The translations under genes and the position numbers were made by a program. 64,000 nt of DNA from Ignavibacterium sp. (GTDB lineage: Bacteria; Bacteroidota; Ignavibacteria; Ignavibacteriales; Ignavibacteriaceae): assembly GCA_032027145.1 (NCBI GenBank), contig JAVSMP010000001.1:496001-560000 (forward strand). Reading direction: 5' to 3'. The notes under the pieces were generated by a model, which worked only from the letters and a program-made list of their open reading frames with translations, was not told where the DNA came from and did not search any database. Below are positions 46,932 to 56,469 of this stretch, piece after piece (position 1 is the first letter of the stretch; each line of letters opens with the position of its first letter).

Positions 46932-49577
46932 TTAAGCAAGGGTTTTCTTTGTTTCTACAAGTTTAAATGCTTCTATTATATCACCAACCTTTACATCGTT
47001 ATAATTGTCAATATTCAATCCGCATTCGTATCCTGCATCAACTTCTCTTACATCATCTTTAAATCTTCTTAAATTTCCTATTGATCCTTCGTGAATTACA
47101 ATTCCATCTCGAATCAATCTTATTTTGTTGCTTCTTGCAATTTTACCATCCAAAACATAGCATCCGGCAACTGTTCCTGATTTCGGAACTTTAAAGGTAT
47201 CTCTTACTTCAACTGTTGCAGTAACTTCTTCAGAGATTACCGGTGACAACAATCCTTCAAGTGCAGACTTAACTTCGTTTATAGCATTATAAATAATGCT
47301 GTAAAGTCTAATATCTACTTTTTGATTCTCAGCAAGTTTACGTGCATTAATATTTGGTCTTACGTGGAAACCAATAATAATTGCATTTGATGCTGCAGCA
47401 AGAAGAACATCGCTTTCTGAAATTCCGCCTACTCCTTTATGAATCACCCGAACCACTACTTCCTGATTGCTTAGCTTCATTAATGAATCAGATAAGGCTT
47501 CGATAGAACCATCCACATCGCCTTTCACAATAAGTGCAAGCTCTTTAACTCCGCCGATACTGATTTGTTTAGCAATTTCATCAAGTGTAATATGATGTAC
47601 CTGTTTCTGGTCTTGTTCTCTTTTTAACTGTTGTCTTTTCAAACTTATTTCACGTGCTTCGCGCTCTGAATCGAGAACAATAAATGTATCACCTGCCTGG
47701 GGTGCGCCTTCAAAACCTAATACCAGTACAGAAACAGATGGTGTAGCTTCACTGACTTTATTGCCTCTTTCATCAAACATAGCCCTAACTTTGCCATAAT
47801 AAATGCCTGCTACAAACGGATCACCAATTCTTAAAGTACCTTTTTGAACGAGAATGGTTGCTGTAATTCCGCGCCCTTTATCAAGTTCTGCTTCTACAAC
47901 AGCACCGCGGGCAAGTCTATCAGGGTTAGCTTTAAGATCAAGCAGTTCGGCTTCAAGAAGGATTTTTTCGAACAACACATCAACATTCAATCCTGTTTTT
48001 GCTGAAAGCTGTACGCATTGATACTTACCTCCCCAGTCTTCAACAAGTACATTTCTATCAGCTAGCTGCTGTTTAATTCTATCTGGATTAGAGCTCGGTT
48101 TATCAATTTTATTAATTGCTATAATAATCGGTACACCAGCAGCCTGTGCGTGATTTAATGCTTCAACTGTTTGGGGCATCACCGCATCATCTGCAGCAAT
48201 TACAAGCACAACAATATCGGTCAACTGAGCTCCGCGAGCACGCATTGCAGTAAATGCTTCGTGTCCTGGAGTATCAAGAAATGTTATTTGTTTTCCATCT
48301 CCTCTGTCAACCCTATATGCTCCGATGTGCTGAGTTATTCCTCCTGATTCACCTGCTACAACATTTGTTCTTCTGATATAATCAAGCAATGAAGTTTTAC
48401 CATGATCAACATGACCCATAATTGTTACAACCGGAGGACGGGGCTGAAGGTCTTCCTCATCGTCTTCAACATCTTTTAAAATCTCAGCAGTATATTCTTT
48501 CTGAAATTCAACATCAAATCCAAATTCATCAGCAACAAGTGTAATTGTTTCAACATCAAGCCTTTGATTAATTGAAACCATTAATCCAAGACTTATACAC
48601 TTAGAAATAACTTCGCCAACCGGTACTTCCATCAGGTTTGCGAGTTCACTAACGGCAATAAACTCGTTAACCCTAAGAACTTTTGAATCGAGATATTTTT
48701 GTTCCTGTAATCTTTCTTCTTCAGCTTCTCTTTCTTTTCTTTTTTTCTTTCTTACAGCAGCTCTGTTAGTAAGAACAGTATCATCCATACTAAGCATTGT
48801 TTGTTTAATTGCTGCTTTTACATCTTTCTCGTCTATTTCAAATTTTTTAACCCGCTTTTTCCTTTTTGTAACGCTAAAATCTTCAACCGGAGTTTCTGCG
48901 CCAGTTTTCTTTTTCGTTTTAGGTCGTTTCTTTTTCTTAACTGTTTCAGATGCTGTATCCTGAGGCTGTTGTTTCTTCTCTTCAGAAACCTGTGGCGGTT
49001 GCTTGCCTTGTTTAACGATTGTTTTTTTATCTTCACCCAGATCAATTTTTCCTACTACCTTTAAACCGCGTTTTTTACCTGCCTCAATATTAGCAGGAGA
49101 TTTAAAACGCTCTGTTGTAGCATTAACCGGTTCAACCGGGCTGAATTCTGCTTCTTCAATTACCGGTTCAGGTTTAATCACTTCTTTCGGTTCTTCTTCA
49201 ATTATTTCCGGGGTTTCAACAACTTCAACTGCTGGTTCAACAGTTACTTCAACAGGAACATCGGTTATTACAATGTCTTTCTCTTCAGCTATGGGTTCTG
49301 CTTCTTCTTCAACCTTTACGATTTTTTCTTCTTTTTCTACCTTATCAGCACGTTTTTTATGAAACTCTGCTATTTTTTTATAATGCTGCTCAGCCTTTTC
49401 AATATCCTTTTTAAAATGGGCATTTATCTCATTTATCATATCTTCTGTTAAGGTTGATTGATGAGATTTAATTTCATATCCCTTATTCCTCAGAAATTCA
49501 ATGAGGTTTTCTGAAGAGAGATTTATCTCCGCAGCATATTTATATAATCTTATTTTAGGAGCTTTAGTTTCAGACAT
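46932..49577 (-). CDS. infB: Translation initiation factor IF-2
   Basis: An 881-residue GTPase that delivers fMet-tRNA to the 30S subunit. The N-terminal ~380 residues are a low-complexity, charged region (repeated Glu/Val/Pro and Lys/Arg tracts) opening with an IF2_N helix domain (IRLYKYAAEINLSSENLIEF). The G domain has G1 GHVDHGKTSLLDYIRR, G3 DTPGHEAFTAM and G4 AINKIDKP; domains II, III and C2 follow in full. The Lys/Arg tract causes several shadow frames, none convincing. Confidence 0.97.
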   Translation of the reverse strand: MSETKAPKIRLYKYAAEINLSSENLIEFLRNKGYEIKSHQSTLTEDMINEINAHFKKDIEKAEQHYKKIAEFHKKRADKVEKEEKIVKVEEEAEPIAEEKDIVITDVPVEVTVEPAVEVVETPEIIEEEPKEVIKPEPVIEEAEFSPVEPVNATTERFKSPANIEAGKKRGLKVVGKIDLGEDKKTIVKQGKQPPQVSEEKKQQPQDTASETVKKKKRPKTKKKTGAETPVEDFSVTKRKKRVKKFEIDEKDVKAAIKQTMLSMDDTVLTNRAAVRKKKRKEREAEEERLQEQKYLDSKVLRVNEFIAVSELANLMEVPVGEVISKCISLGLMVSINQRLDVETITLVADEFGFDVEFQKEYTAEILKDVEDDEEDLQPRPPVVTIMGHVDHGKTSLLDYIRRTNVVAGESGGITQHIGAYRVDRGDGKQITFLDTPGHEAFTAMRARGAQLTDIVVLVIAADDAVMPQTVEALNHAQAAGVPIIIAINKIDKPSSNPDRIKQQLADRNVLVEDWGGKYQCVQLSAKTGLNVDVLFEKILLEAELLDLKANPDRLARGAVVEAELDKGRGITATILVQKGTLRIGDPFVAGIYYGKVRAMFDERGNKVSEATPSVSVLVLGFEGAPQAGDTFIVLDSEREAREISLKRQQLKREQDQKQVHHITLDEIAKQISIGGVKELALIVKGDVDGSIEALSDSLMKLSNQEVVVRVIHKGVGGISESDVLLAAASNAIIIGFHVRPNINARKLAENQKVDIRLYSIIYNAINEVKSALEGLLSPVISEEVTATVEVRDTFKVPKSGTVAGCYVLDGKIARSNKIRLIRDGIVIHEGSIGNLRRFKDDVREVDAGYECGLNIDNYNDVKVGDIIEAFKLVETKKTLA

Positions 49578-49599: not shown

Positions 49600-50847
49600 C
49601 TATTCTTCTTCTTCGAACTGAGATTTAATTAATTCGAGTATCTCTTCTATCTTTTCGTCATCAAACTCTTCGATTTCTTTTAATTTTTCGGGACCGGCGG
49701 TTAATACTTCAATAGCAGTATCATATCTATGATTAATCAGAATCTCATAAACATCGGCGCCAAGTTCTTCTTTAAGATCAATAAGTTCGATATCCTCTTC
49801 ATATTCTTCAAATGGTTTTTCTTCGCGCAATATTTCAATATCATATCCTGTCAGCTTCATTGCAAGTCGGATGTTAACTCCATTTCTTCCTACAATTAAA
49901 GAAACCTGGTCACTATCAGCAGTAACAATTGCTTTTCTTTCATCTTCATATAGTTCTATTTTTTTAAGCTTTGCAGGAGCCAAAGCTTTTTGAATAAAAA
50001 CAATCGGATCATCAGAATAGCTGACAACATCAATATTTTCATTATTTAACTCACGAACTATCGCATGAATTCTTACACCTTTCATTCCAACACATGCACC
50101 AACTGCATCAATTCTCTGATCCTGAGATTCAACAGCAATCTTAGCTCTTTCTCCGGGTTCACGGGCAATTGATTTTATTTCTATTATTCCATCATAAATT
50201 TCCGGAATTTCAATTTCAAACAATCTTCTTAAGAACATATTATCAGCTCTTGAGATTACAATAACAGGTCCGCTGTTGCCTTTTTTAACTTCCTTAACTA
50301 TTGCTCTTATCGTTTCTCCTTTTTTATATTTTTCAAAAGGAATCTGTTCATTCCGAGGAAGCATCAATTCATTTTTATTATGATTAACCAGGATGTCATT
50401 TTTCCTTATCTGATAAATATCTCCGACAACAATTTCACCGAGTAATTCATTGTATTCATTATAAATAATTTCTTTTTCCAATTCACGGATTTTCTGATTT
50501 AAGCTTTGTTTAGCAAGAACAACCAATCTTCTTCCAAGCGAAGCAAGTTCAATCTTCTCAACATATTCTTCGCCAACTTCCAGCTCATCTTCATTGCCTC
50601 TTTTATTTACTTCATCAATTCCTATCTGTGTATTAGGGTCTTCCACAACTTCAACTATTTCACGTTCGAGAAAAATTTCTATATCGCCACGGTCCATATT
50701 TACAACAACATCAAATTTTGCTTCATCTCCGAATTTTTTTCTTACAAGCAAACCAAAAATTTCCTCGAGAATACCACCGAGTACATCTCTATCAATGCCT
50801 TTTTCTTTTACCATTTGGGCAAAAGATTCGACAATCTCACTATTCAT
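49600..50847 (-). CDS. nusA: Transcription termination/antitermination protein NusA
   Basis: A 415-residue factor with the N-terminal polymerase-binding domain (residues ~1-125), an S1 domain (GEIVVGDIYQIRKNDILV), then KH domains carrying ACVGMKGVRIHAIVRELN and SLIVGRNGVNIRLAMKLTG, and a short acidic C-terminal helix-hairpin-helix tail (EEFDDEKIEEILELIKSQ). It increases pausing and intrinsic termination and takes part in antitermination. The ATG is preceded by a strong AGAGGAGA site. Confidence 0.96.
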   Translation of the reverse strand: MNSEIVESFAQMVKEKGIDRDVLGGILEEIFGLLVRKKFGDEAKFDVVVNMDRGDIEIFLEREIVEVVEDPNTQIGIDEVNKRGNEDELEVGEEYVEKIELASLGRRLVVLAKQSLNQKIRELEKEIIYNEYNELLGEIVVGDIYQIRKNDILVNHNKNELMLPRNEQIPFEKYKKGETIRAIVKEVKKGNSGPVIVISRADNMFLRRLFEIEIPEIYDGIIEIKSIAREPGERAKIAVESQDQRIDAVGACVGMKGVRIHAIVRELNNENIDVVSYSDDPIVFIQKALAPAKLKKIELYEDERKAIVTADSDQVSLIVGRNGVNIRLAMKLTGYDIEILREEKPFEEYEEDIELIDLKEELGADVYEILINHRYDTAIEVLTAGPEKLKEIEEFDDEKIEEILELIKSQFEEEE

Positions 50848-50863
50848 TTATTATCTCCTCTTA

Positions 50864-51319
50864 CTAAGAAAAACTAATTAATACTTTAGCTTCAATAATC
50901 TGATTAAACTTAATTAAAATATTTTTTTCTTTTGTCTGAAAAGTTAATTCATCTTTTTCAGCTGAGATTAACTTTCCGGCAAACTTTGCTTCTGAATCCG
51001 CTGTTTTATAAACTATCTCAAAATTTCTGTTAATGTGTTTAGGGTATTGTTGTAAGAATTTTAGTGGTCTATCAACCCCAGGAGATGAGACTTCCAGTCT
51101 GTAAGATTCCTTGATTAAATTTTCTGACTCTATAATTTCATTCAATTCGCGGCTCATCCCTGCAAGATCATCGGCGCTCACATTTTTTCCGGCATCAACA
51201 AAAACTTCCAAAATTCTCTTTCTGCTATCACCCCTTATTATAACATCGATAACAAAATAGCCAAGCTTTTCAGCGATTTTGTTTGAAATTTCAACAATAT
51301 TTTCTTTTAATTTATCCAT
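50864..51319 (-). CDS. rimP: Ribosome maturation factor RimP
   Basis: I start at the ATG at 51319 (MDKLKENIVEISNKIAEKL); the longer frame opens with TTG inside the terminator-like hairpin and is unlikely. The ~151-residue factor helps 30S assembly. The N-terminal domain has GYFVIDVIIRGDSRKRILEV and the middle YRLEVSSPGVDRPLKFLQQY, the RimP signature. There is no Shine-Dalgarno directly before the ATG. It heads rimP-nusA-infB-rbfA-truB. Confidence 0.92.
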   Translation of the reverse strand: MDKLKENIVEISNKIAEKLGYFVIDVIIRGDSRKRILEVFVDAGKNVSADDLAGMSRELNEIIESENLIKESYRLEVSSPGVDRPLKFLQQYPKHINRNFEIVYKTADSEAKFAGKLISAEKDELTFQTKEKNILIKFNQIIEAKVLISFS

Positions 51320-51326
51320 ATTAACA

Positions 51327-51349
51327 AAAAACGCCCTCAATGGGGCGAA
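51327..51349 (-). terminator. Terminator-like hairpin in the rimP leader (candidate attenuator)
   Basis: On the minus strand CGCCC-CATTGA-GGGCG is followed directly by TTTTTT and ends about 8 bases before the rimP ATG. A 5-bp all-GC stem plus a T6 run is the shape of an intrinsic terminator. The -7 promoter element lies just upstream, so the transcript would begin with this hairpin. Coordinates may be off by one base. Confidence 0.6.
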
Positions 51350-51358
51350 TCAGCAGGT

Positions 51359-51390
51359 CAAAAATATGATTAATTATTATGATAACCAAA
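51359..51390 (-). promoter_or_regulatory. Bacteroidota-type promoter for rimP-nusA-infB
   Basis: The minus strand has TTTG at about 51387-51390, a 20-base spacer and TATTTTTG at about 51359-51366. This matches the consensus TTTG - about 19 bases - TAnnTTTG, including both elements and near-ideal spacing. The transcript should start roughly 7-8 bases further on, immediately before the hairpin. Confidence 0.6.
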
Positions 51391-51481
51391 AAAAAGTTTG
51401 GATTGAAAAAGCTAAAATTTGCGGCTTTTAGCTGAAACTGTACCTAAACTATCTACAAATTTATTTCTTCTAAAGTTAGGG

Positions 51482-52108
51482 TTACTTTAAAACTATCATC
51501 TTTTTTGTTGATATAAATGAACCAGCCTGTAAACGATAGATATAAACTCCGCTTGCAAGGTTTGATGCATCCCAGCTTACTTCATAATATCCCGGCTCTT
51601 GTTTTTCGTTTACAAGTGTTGCTGCTTCACTGCCGAGTATGCCATAAACTTTTAAGCTAACTTCTGAGAGGCTGGATACCTGATACCGGATTCTGGTTGT
51701 TGGATTAAATGGATTTGGATAGTTCTGCTCAAGCTTAAATTCTTTTGGACCAGTATAACTGAAGATAAAACTTTTCATCATCATCAGTCCGTTTGAATCT
51801 GATATCATAAAATCAATTGTATCTTTTTTATTGATTGGTGCGTTTCTGTTTACATCAAATGTAAAGATTGCATTTGCCTCCGCCTTAGCTTCAATCAAAT
51901 CTATAGTCTGTGCTTCAGTACTGAAATTTAGATACGAAGATTTTCTAGTCAGGATTATTTCAACATCGTTCACAGGAGTTTCTTCCGAAACATTCGCAAC
52001 CGTCAAATTTATTTTATTACCTTTCGTTCCCGGTTGAACTTCGTAAATAGTTTGTGCGAATGAATAATATGTTATTGCCGATGCGATAATTAAAATTTTT
52101 ATTAGCAT
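51482..52108 (-). CDS. Small secreted protein with T9SS C-terminal sorting domain
   Basis: A 208-residue protein: signal peptide (LIKILIIASAITYYSFAQ), a ~95-residue Ig-like/cohesin-like beta region (NKINLTVANVSEETPVNDVE, ANAIFTFDVNRNAPINKKD) and a complete type A T9SS tail (LEQNYPNPFNPTTRIRY, LKVYGILGSEAATLVNE, LASGVYIYRL, KKMIVLK). It should be exported by Sec and then moved to the surface by the type IX system. The cargo part has no recognisable activity. It marks the shift from the core cluster to the accessory region. Confidence 0.83.
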   Translation of the reverse strand: MLIKILIIASAITYYSFAQTIYEVQPGTKGNKINLTVANVSEETPVNDVEIILTRKSSYLNFSTEAQTIDLIEAKAEANAIFTFDVNRNAPINKKDTIDFMISDSNGLMMMKSFIFSYTGPKEFKLEQNYPNPFNPTTRIRYQVSSLSEVSLKVYGILGSEAATLVNEKQEPGYYEVSWDASNLASGVYIYRLQAGSFISTKKMIVLK

Positions 52109-55186: not shown

Positions 55187-55513
55187 ATGTCCGAAACAAA
55201 AAGAGAAAGAAAACATTACTCCCCGGATCAGAAAGTTCTTATCCTTAGAGAACTTCTTGAAAACAATCTTCCCATCAGCCAGCTTGCTGAAAAGTACCAG
55301 GTTCACCCTAACGACATCTATAACTGGAAGAAAAAACTCTTTGAATATGCTAAAGATATTTTTCAGAGTAAATCAGTTAATCAGAAACAAACCTCCCTGG
55401 AACAGAAAAAGATTGAAAAGCTTCAGTCTAAATTAAGAGATCGTGAGGAGGCGATAGCCTTTCTGCTTAAAGAAAACATCGAAATAAAAAAAAGTATAGA
55501 TGGGGAGATATGA
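55187..55513 (+). CDS. IS3-family transposase OrfA
   Basis: A 108-residue protein with a helix-turn-helix (YSPDQKVLILRELLENNLP, AEKYQVHPNDIYNWKKKLFE) that binds the IS ends, followed by a leucine-zipper-like coiled coil (KIEKLQSKLRDREEAIAFLL). An AAAGGAAAT ribosome-binding site precedes the ATG. Near its end lies an eight-A run (about 55486-55493) at which a -1 slip would fuse it to OrfB, the usual way IS3 elements make OrfAB transposase. Confidence 0.88.
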   Translation: MSETKRERKHYSPDQKVLILRELLENNLPISQLAEKYQVHPNDIYNWKKKLFEYAKDIFQSKSVNQKQTSLEQKKIEKLQSKLRDREEAIAFLLKENIEIKKSIDGEI

Positions 55514-56469
55514 ACAGAAAGTGGGTTGAACCTGACGTAAGAGATAATGTTGTGGAGTTTGTAAACTTCATAAGACTCAAGACTGATATTCCGCTTAAAG
55601 GCATCACTCCTCTTTTAGGCATTAGTTCCAGTAAATATTATTCCTGGATTGAGAGGAAAGGAGTAAAAAATAACCATAACGGAAAGACTTCCAAGGAACA
55701 TTGGTGCCTGGACTGGGAGAAGAAAGCCATTATTGTCTATGCTAAAGTTCATCCCGTAGAAGGTTACAGACGCCTTACTTACAAGATGATTGATGATAAT
55801 GTTGTTGCTGTTTCGCCTGCTACTACTTACAGAATACTTAAAGCTGCCGGCTTACTTAACAGGTGGAATAAAGTTAAAAGATCTTCTAAAGGAGGTGGCT
55901 TTGATCAGCCAACAGCTCCTCACCAGCACTGGCATACCGATATTAAGTATGTTAACTATCACGGAACTTTTCTGTTTCTTATTTCTGTTATTGATGGTTA
56001 CTCACGATATATAGTTCATCACGAACTAAGACGAAGTATGCAACAGTTTGATGTTCAGTTAACCTTGCAGAGAGCTTTAGAGAAGTACCCCGGCACAAAG
56101 CCAAGAATCATTTCAGATAATGGTCCTCAGTTTATTTCCAAAGACTTTGCTGAATATCTGAAGCTTCTAGGACTTCAGCATATAAGAACCTCTGTTGCTT
56201 ATCCTCAGAGTAATGGCAAGATCGAACGATACCATAGAACTATTCATCAGGACTGCTTAATGAAAACCTCTTTAATCAATCTTGATGATGCACGCAAACA
56301 GATTTCATCTTATATTGATTACTACAATACTAAAAGACTTCACAGTTCGTTGTTTTATTTAACACCTGAAGATTTTCTTATTGACAGAGTTGAAGAAAAG
56401 CTGAAAGTAAGAGAACGAAAACTTAAAGAAGCTAAACTGAAAAGAATTGAGGTTAGATATGCAAGCTAA
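55510..56469 (+). CDS. IS3-family transposase OrfB (DDE integrase core)
   Basis: A 319-residue transposase subunit. It has an N-terminal helical part (YRRLTYKMIDDNVVAVSPAT) and an rve-type catalytic core: first Asp in HWHTDIKYVNYHG, second Asp in RIISDNGPQFISKDF, and Glu in NGKIERYHRTIHQDC. The ATG overlaps the orfA stop by 4 bp (ATGA) in the -1 frame, and the -1 frame is open back through the A8 run. It should be active as far as sequence shows. Confidence 0.92.
   Translation: MNRKWVEPDVRDNVVEFVNFIRLKTDIPLKGITPLLGISSSKYYSWIERKGVKNNHNGKTSKEHWCLDWEKKAIIVYAKVHPVEGYRRLTYKMIDDNVVAVSPATTYRILKAAGLLNRWNKVKRSSKGGGFDQPTAPHQHWHTDIKYVNYHGTFLFLISVIDGYSRYIVHHELRRSMQQFDVQLTLQRALEKYPGTKPRIISDNGPQFISKDFAEYLKLLGLQHIRTSVAYPQSNGKIERYHRTIHQDCLMKTSLINLDDARKQISSYIDYYNTKRLHSSLFYLTPEDFLIDRVEEKLKVRERKLKEAKLKRIEVRYAS

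Follow-up and report, generated by a model that had tools for sequence, protein, structure and literature searches.

What role might a terminator play when it lies between a promoter and rimP-nusA-infB, the genes which that promoter would transcribe? An earlier note, made from the letters alone, had raised this question for a locus in 64,000 nucleotides of Ignavibacterium sp. DNA (contig JAVSMP010000001.1, positions 496,001 to 560,000; here called the window). We followed it up computationally, in the window and in related genomes.

Promoter, hairpin, and operon in the window

Pfam domains identified the genes downstream of the promoter as rimP, nusA, and infB, as the note had named them. The features are listed in the order of transcription:

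51406..51433, minus strand: AT-rich inverted repeat AGCTAAAA..TTTTAGCT with a T run (sequence only)
51387..51390, minus strand: -33 element TTTG, 20 nt 5' of the -7 box (sequence)
51359..51366, minus strand: -7 element TATTTTTG, of the form TAnnTTTG (sequence)
51354, minus strand: predicted +1, placed by analogy with F. johnsoniae, where the G of TAnnTTTG is at -5 (PMC6847099)
51332..51347, minus strand: leader hairpin CGCCC-CATTGA-GGGCG, CGCCCCATTGAGGGCG (sequence, terminator scan, folding, conservation)
51320..51331, minus strand: T tract TTTTTTGTTAAT, the terminator tail, interrupted at position 7 and reaching the start codon (sequence)
50864..51319, minus strand: rimP, with Pfam RimP_N and RimP C-terminal domain; the ATG at 51319 is taken as the start
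49600..50847, minus strand: nusA, with Pfam NusA_N, KH_5, and KH_NusA_C, 16 nt 3' of rimP
46932..49577, minus strand: infB, with Pfam IF-2, IF2_N, and GTP_EFTU

On the minus strand, TTTTTT at 51331-51326 is followed by GTTAAT and then by the rimP ATG, which begins 12 nt from the end of the stem and 6 nt from the T run. The note had described this arrangement correctly but had the hairpin and T run ending about 8 bases before the ATG, a spacing that does not hold. An alternative TTG start of rimP at 51340, taken from the list of open reading frames, falls within the hairpin.

The Bacteroidota sigma-A consensus consists of TTTG at -33 and TAnnTTTG at -7 (PMC7366714, PMC6847099). Both elements are present in the window leader, with a gap of 11 nt from TATTTTTG to the stem. 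Among 90 leaders of the same order, at least five of the six consensus bases of the -7 box were found in 82 and all six in 57. Since mononucleotide shuffles reach at least 5/6 in 34% of cases and 6/6 in 2.7%, the informative evidence is the 6/6 count together with the near-fixed spacing, the box lying mostly 11 to 13 nt 5' of the stem. A TTG stands exactly 20 nt 5' of the -7 box in 81/90 leaders, and some TTG at 16 to 25 nt in 90/90. The Bacteroidota-type promoter that the note had proposed was thereby upheld, both as a match to the consensus and as an element conserved at a near-fixed distance from the stem.

Counted from the predicted start, the stem would extend from +8 to +23, the run of six T residues would end at +29, and the ATG would be at +36. 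This corresponds to a leader of about 35 nt, with roughly 7 nt of RNA 5' of the stem. Because the base at the predicted +1 is a purine in only 30 of 81 order leaders, the true start may lie a few nucleotides away from 51354. For the same 81 leaders, and given the start that we infer, we predict 6 to 10 nt of RNA 5' of the stem and a 5' UTR of 33 to 37 nt in 52 leaders, with a maximum of 66 nt among the remainder. No antiterminator or larger structured element was found in them under this predicted +1, a result that rests on the inferred start.

The inverted repeat AGCTAAAA..TTTTAGCT probably, judging by its sequence, terminates transcription of the upstream gene (51482-52108). A nusA match was present in all 30 order rimP loci examined, immediately 3' of rimP in the four with listed positions. 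By a crude criterion that took the longest open stretch nearby, 74 leaders have an upstream neighbor; these neighbors form 44 clusters, and 21 of the 74 are in the opposite orientation. With nusA kept and the upstream neighbors variable, the leader belongs to the rimP operon. Elsewhere in the window, a T9SS sorting domain is encoded nearby (Pfam). Two adjoining plus-strand open reading frames at 55187-56469, in a region otherwise mostly on the minus strand, resemble an IS3-type transposase pair by eye.

Conservation within the order

The folding energy of the leader was ordinary, with a z score of -0.21 over 76 nt and 77 of 200 shuffles folding equally well or better. A scan of 10 kb yielded 9 terminator-like sites compared with 5.2 +/- 2.3 expected; the leader hairpin tops these sites in G-C pairs, with 5/5. 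Ordinary energy would suit a hairpin that arose by chance or that merely ends transcription of the upstream gene, a reading to which we give almost no credence in view of its conservation. Of 97 genomes searched, the own genome and others from its genus, family, or order, 95 yielded a rimP gene, and the leader of this gene carries a hairpin with a GCCC/GGGC core and a T tract in 95/95. The note had named absence of the hairpin from close relatives as grounds for abandoning its idea, and the search in related rimP leaders found the opposite. As a terminator of the upstream gene the hairpin was rejected, since the promoter separates it from that gene and the neighbors are not conserved; the upstream gene also has its own AT-rich terminator-like repeat.

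Identity of RimP to the window protein is 35 to 59%, with five exceptions among the 95 genomes. Despite this divergence, the eight core stem bases are unchanged in every one of the 95 leaders. Ninety of these were read first (30 + 60 loci) and underlie the detailed counts, and five read later (G029, G037, G041, G055, and G073) were scored for hairpin and T tract. All 90 follow the pattern GCCC-N4..10-GGGC, T tract, ATG. The outer stem pair is C-G in 86, U-A in 3, and a mismatched A-A in 1 (L083). The loop is 6 nt long in 52 leaders and 5 nt in 31; the remaining 7 have loops of 4, 7, 9, or 10 nt. The hairpin was also present in the leader of an Ignavibacteriales metagenome-assembled genome whose RimP is 45% identical (L091).

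The T tract lies directly 3' of the stem in 90/90 leaders. Its positions 2 to 5, 8, and 9 are T in all 90 and position 6 is T in 89, whereas 82 leaders have G or A at position 7, a conserved imperfection. The hairpin has a mean energy of -10.1 kcal/mol over the 90 leaders and, with 5 bp, of -8.7 kcal/mol in the window. A strict terminator detector (at least 5 bp, at least 4 G-C pairs, 6 T in 8) was positive in 89/90 order leaders compared with 6/1800 dinucleotide shuffles. It was also positive at 1 of 46 other open reading frame starts in the window and in 1 of 30 groES leaders from relatives (L276-L305, those of 41 genomes with listed loci). Sequence and detector thus agree with the note in placing a terminator-like hairpin between promoter and rimP, and the element is clearly more than chance, by conservation and not by energy.

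A perfect inverted repeat with an invariant core at the start site might also be read as DNA, with CGCCC..GGGCG bound by a dimeric repressor just 3' of the promoter. The groES control leaders carry an operator-like repeat, with 1/30 positive in the detector, which lends this reading some support. It was rejected on the variable spacing of the arms, 4 to 10 nt over 90 leaders where a dimer site would keep a fixed distance, and we consider it very improbable. On the coding strand the repeat is followed by a T tract in 90/90 leaders, it occurs once in the own genome, and in other families the arms are unrelated while the terminator is mostly kept. In six listed groES leaders (L276-L281) we saw TTAGCACTC-N-GAGTGCTAA-like repeats, which we take to be a CIRCE-like (HrcA) operator.

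We also considered whether the hairpin acts on translation, governing ribosome access to the rimP mRNA or its stability, with the T tract as a mere U-rich spacer. In the window and in 46/90 leaders it lies 12 nt from the ATG, a distance within the ribosome footprint. Across the order, however, this distance ranges from 10 to 43 nt, whereas the T tract always adjoins the stem and is the best-kept part of the leader apart from it. In F. johnsoniae, initiation is tuned by structure near the start, and members of the phylum are said to be without Shine-Dalgarno (SD) sequences (PMC6847099). GGAG, GAGG, or AGGA occurred in 0/90 order rimP leaders within 12 nt 5' of the ATG and in 3/90 within 18 nt, compared with 29/30 and 30/30 order groES leaders. 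For ATG-started minus-strand open reading frames of the window, the counts were 7/31 and 8/31. The order therefore uses SD sequences in places and rimP is conspicuously without one, with the T tract filling that space; initiation on rimP is likely weak, to judge from the sequence, a point in favor of a translational role. The note had remarked that the only SD-like bases are in the hairpin arm. Their absence near the ATG is indeed conserved, but the GAGGG of the arm is present in only 32/90 leaders and was rejected as a key feature. This lack of conservation also speaks against control of translation, which we regard as unlikely.

Specificity and leaders beyond the order

A search of the own genome with the pattern GCCCN{3,10}GGGCRWTTTTNNTT returned a single match, at the rimP leader, and the reversed control pattern returned 0. 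A genome-wide family of such leaders was therefore rejected. The pattern matched in 96 of 97 order genomes, compared with 10 of 97, once each, for the reversed control. One genome with a pattern match (G088) has no rimP match, and its match resembles the pyrE type described below. Among the 20 listed stretches with further matches that we read in relatives, 5 are rimP leaders and 15 lie elsewhere. By eye, six of the latter are in pyrE coding sequence (L122-L124, L131, L134, L135), three are 5' of an aminotransferase-like open reading frame (L125-L127), and six are at or between other open reading frames (L128-L130, L132, L133, L141). The three aminotransferase-type stretches, from families f1 and f2, have a GC terminator (..GCCCTCCACCGGGC plus T tract) at about 1533 in L125, 1522 in L126, and 1587 on the minus strand in L127. 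It lies about 30 to 65 nt 5' of what we named by eye an ilvE-like branched-chain aminotransferase and is possibly another attenuator.

To extend the search, we built a covariance model of the hairpin, R1. It was built from 37 of the 90 leaders, all with a loop of 6, because MAFFT had misaligned rows with 5-nt loops in alignment A1. R1 gave one match in the own genome. At E <= 0.01 it matched 30/197 genomes of the class, which are 30 of the 32 order genomes sampled there, and 27/296 genomes of the phylum, of which 25 belong to the order. Its matches are nearly confined to three families of the order, and it misses two order genomes (G014, G031) whose leaders hold a variant form of the hairpin. 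The other two phylum genomes contain three weak matches, L172 and L174 in G358 and L173 in G429. R1 fails in other families because their rimP stems differ.

The terminator itself, as opposed to a given stem sequence, was examined in 60 rimP leaders belonging to class and phylum families outside the order. This outer set was chosen by hand, with one to four leaders per family and some families unsampled, from genomes with a RimP match (26/197 class and 4/198 phylum genomes had none). The strict detector was positive in 46/60 outer leaders compared with 3/1200 shuffles. By eye, the 14 negative leaders (L227, L233, L239, L240, L244, L246, L250-L254, L256, L259, L261) mostly show extended loops, bulged stems, weaker T tracts, or a misassigned start codon. 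They were not counted as positive, and some may be without a terminator. The outer stems include TAGCCC..GGGCTA, GTGGGT..ACCCAC, ATGGGC..GCCCAT, AGTCCC..GGGACT, GAGGGGAC..GTCCCCTC, and CGCCCG..CGGGCG, and their sequence looks to be kept within a clade. Arm polarity among the 46 detected stems is GGG>CCC in 25, CCC>GGG in 18, and other in 3. As far as these sequences indicate, the leaders mostly retain the terminator, its short G-C run, and its position, whereas arm polarity and sequence change from clade to clade. The promoter signal is weaker than in the order, a 6/6 -7 box occurring within 45 nt 5' of the stem in 16/46 leaders, a raw count without shuffles.

Upstream of rimP in three outer leaders (L242, L268, and L269; families f30, f40, and f51), two terminator-like hairpins stand in tandem by eye. 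The first has a G-rich 5' arm and the second a C-rich or mixed one. This order is the reverse of that in the gammaproteobacterial tandem (PMC2965389).

Probable attenuation of the operon and comparison with known leaders

We think it probable that this promoter-proximal intrinsic terminator is a minimal transcription attenuator of rimP-nusA-infB, controlled most simply by NusA. The sigma-A promoter would start an RNA about 7 nt 5' of the 5-bp GC hairpin, which would form at the RNA polymerase exit channel while the T tract is being synthesized. A share of complexes would halt at about +30 and free an RNA of some 30 nt just 5' of the rimP start codon, and the remainder would read through into the operon. 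Starting so close to the hairpin leaves no room for an antiterminator, so that output would be set by the efficiency of a single terminator. In the simplest case the effector would be NusA, itself encoded in the operon: more free NusA would mean more stopping and less operon mRNA.

NusA feedback on the rimP leader is our best guess because the operon encodes NusA, a precedent exists in B. subtilis, and the interruption of the T tract is conserved. A weak hairpin is a trait of NusA-dependent terminators. Distal interruptions of the T tract have been reported for such terminators as well, and NusA helps there (PMC8060035); in the order, position 7 is not T in 82/90 leaders. Several points weigh against the attenuator reading. 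The invariance of the stem core (95/95) exceeds what a plain terminator needs and may reflect an additional sequence-specific role. NusA would also have to work no more than about 30 nt from the start site, where sigma is possibly still bound. The ordinary folding energy, the low purine count at the predicted +1, and the 14 outer leaders negative in the detector count against it too.

The terminator might instead be real but sensed by another factor, such as NusG through pausing, (p)ppGpp or nucleoside triphosphate levels, or RimP or a ribosomal protein on the hairpin, or it might act constitutively and simply hold operon expression low. Within the order the stem core is invariant, as though recognized. 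The tail reads TT(G/A)TTT at positions 5 to 10 in 68/90 leaders, similar to the NusG pause motif TTNTTT (PMC12288461). At the site occupied by S85-V86 in E. coli and N81-T82 in B. subtilis (PMC12288461), S-T is found in the own NusG, which thus shares one residue with either. However, stem sequence and polarity differ between families, which argues against one fixed protein site, and the operon encodes a factor known to strengthen terminators. Control by another factor, or by none, therefore seems rather unlikely to us. The own genome also encodes a second NusG-like protein (L275, C1:3415375-3415827), below the NusG family cutoff, which by sequence is perhaps a specialized factor of the RfaH/UpxY type.

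If NusA feedback is taken as the mechanism, a bolder proposal for the whole phylum can be put forward, one that we offer tentatively and hold to be doubtful. The terminator would lie at the physical minimum distance from the start (about +30 in the window), and stopping would depend on whether NusA loads onto the polymerase before those 30 nt are made. The leader would then sense free NusA directly and kinetically at the hand-over from sigma to NusA, without a ligand-binding RNA, its stem polarity and sequence exchangeable between clades and frozen within them.

Among the closest known systems is the rimP-leader of Naville and Gautheret (2010), the most ubiquitous attenuator in their study, present in the majority of species, including Firmicutes and Gammaproteobacteria (PMC2965389). 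It is described as GGGc(...)gCCC, 4 to 130 nt from the start codon, without an antiterminator and with NusA as the best candidate regulator. The leader in the window shares with it a lone hairpin with a conserved G-C run and a T stretch before rimP-nusA-infB. Unlike that leader, with its G-rich 5' arm, the window and the order have inverted arms (CCC>GGG), and the window's leader is only about 35 nt long. The same source mentions the inverse motif for an upstream tandem terminator of several Gammaproteobacteria. The term "Bacteroid" does not occur in the main text of PMC2965389, whose supplementary species lists may include members of the phylum. Likewise, neither rimP nor nusA appears in that of PMC7366714.

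No Rfam family reached its gathering score in the window. RF01770, the rimP leader of Gammaproteobacteria, is a cis-regulatory leader of the same gene, but scored 15.8 bits in the window, below its 47-bit gathering cutoff and over 51389-51464 rather than the hairpin. It gave one subthreshold match, of 23.8 bits, in 20 of the 60 outer loci. Homology to it was rejected, with both the window and the 20 outer loci below the cutoff. A structured 5' element before rimP with no Rfam match has been reported in other genera of Flavobacteriaceae (PMC9723704), which lists it at the family level and, in that section, gives no anatomy or mechanism; it is not the order form. Our literature search, which left most subscription journals outside its reach, found, among the papers listed, no other description of the leader in Ignavibacteriales or across Bacteroidota.

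The feedback idea fits both the attenuator class of PMC2965389 and B. subtilis, where NusA is autoregulated by NusA-stimulated termination in the leader (PMC12288461). In either organism a terminator precedes the gene encoding NusA, stimulated by NusA there and predicted to be so here. Unlike the B. subtilis leader, which is 180 nt long (a study cited in PMC2965389), ours has its terminator almost at the predicted start. At 35 nt, it would be among the smallest attenuators known to us if it sets the level of NusA, and it would offer an unusually clean in vitro system for NusA joining polymerase just after initiation. Mondal 2016 is reportedly the primary paper on NusA autoregulation in B. subtilis.

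In the model bacteria NusA is essential, and its action extends to many terminators (PMC12288461). With the leader described here, the range of the rimP attenuator would come to include bacteria whose promoters are of another type, and R1 provides a covariance model for a leader outside all Rfam families. The order has preserved this leader, and in the rest of the phylum equivalents mostly take its place. What was known is the rimP-leader and NusA autoregulation in B. subtilis; the leader described here is a variant of these that differs by its inverted polarity, its shortness, and a stem core that is invariant across the order.
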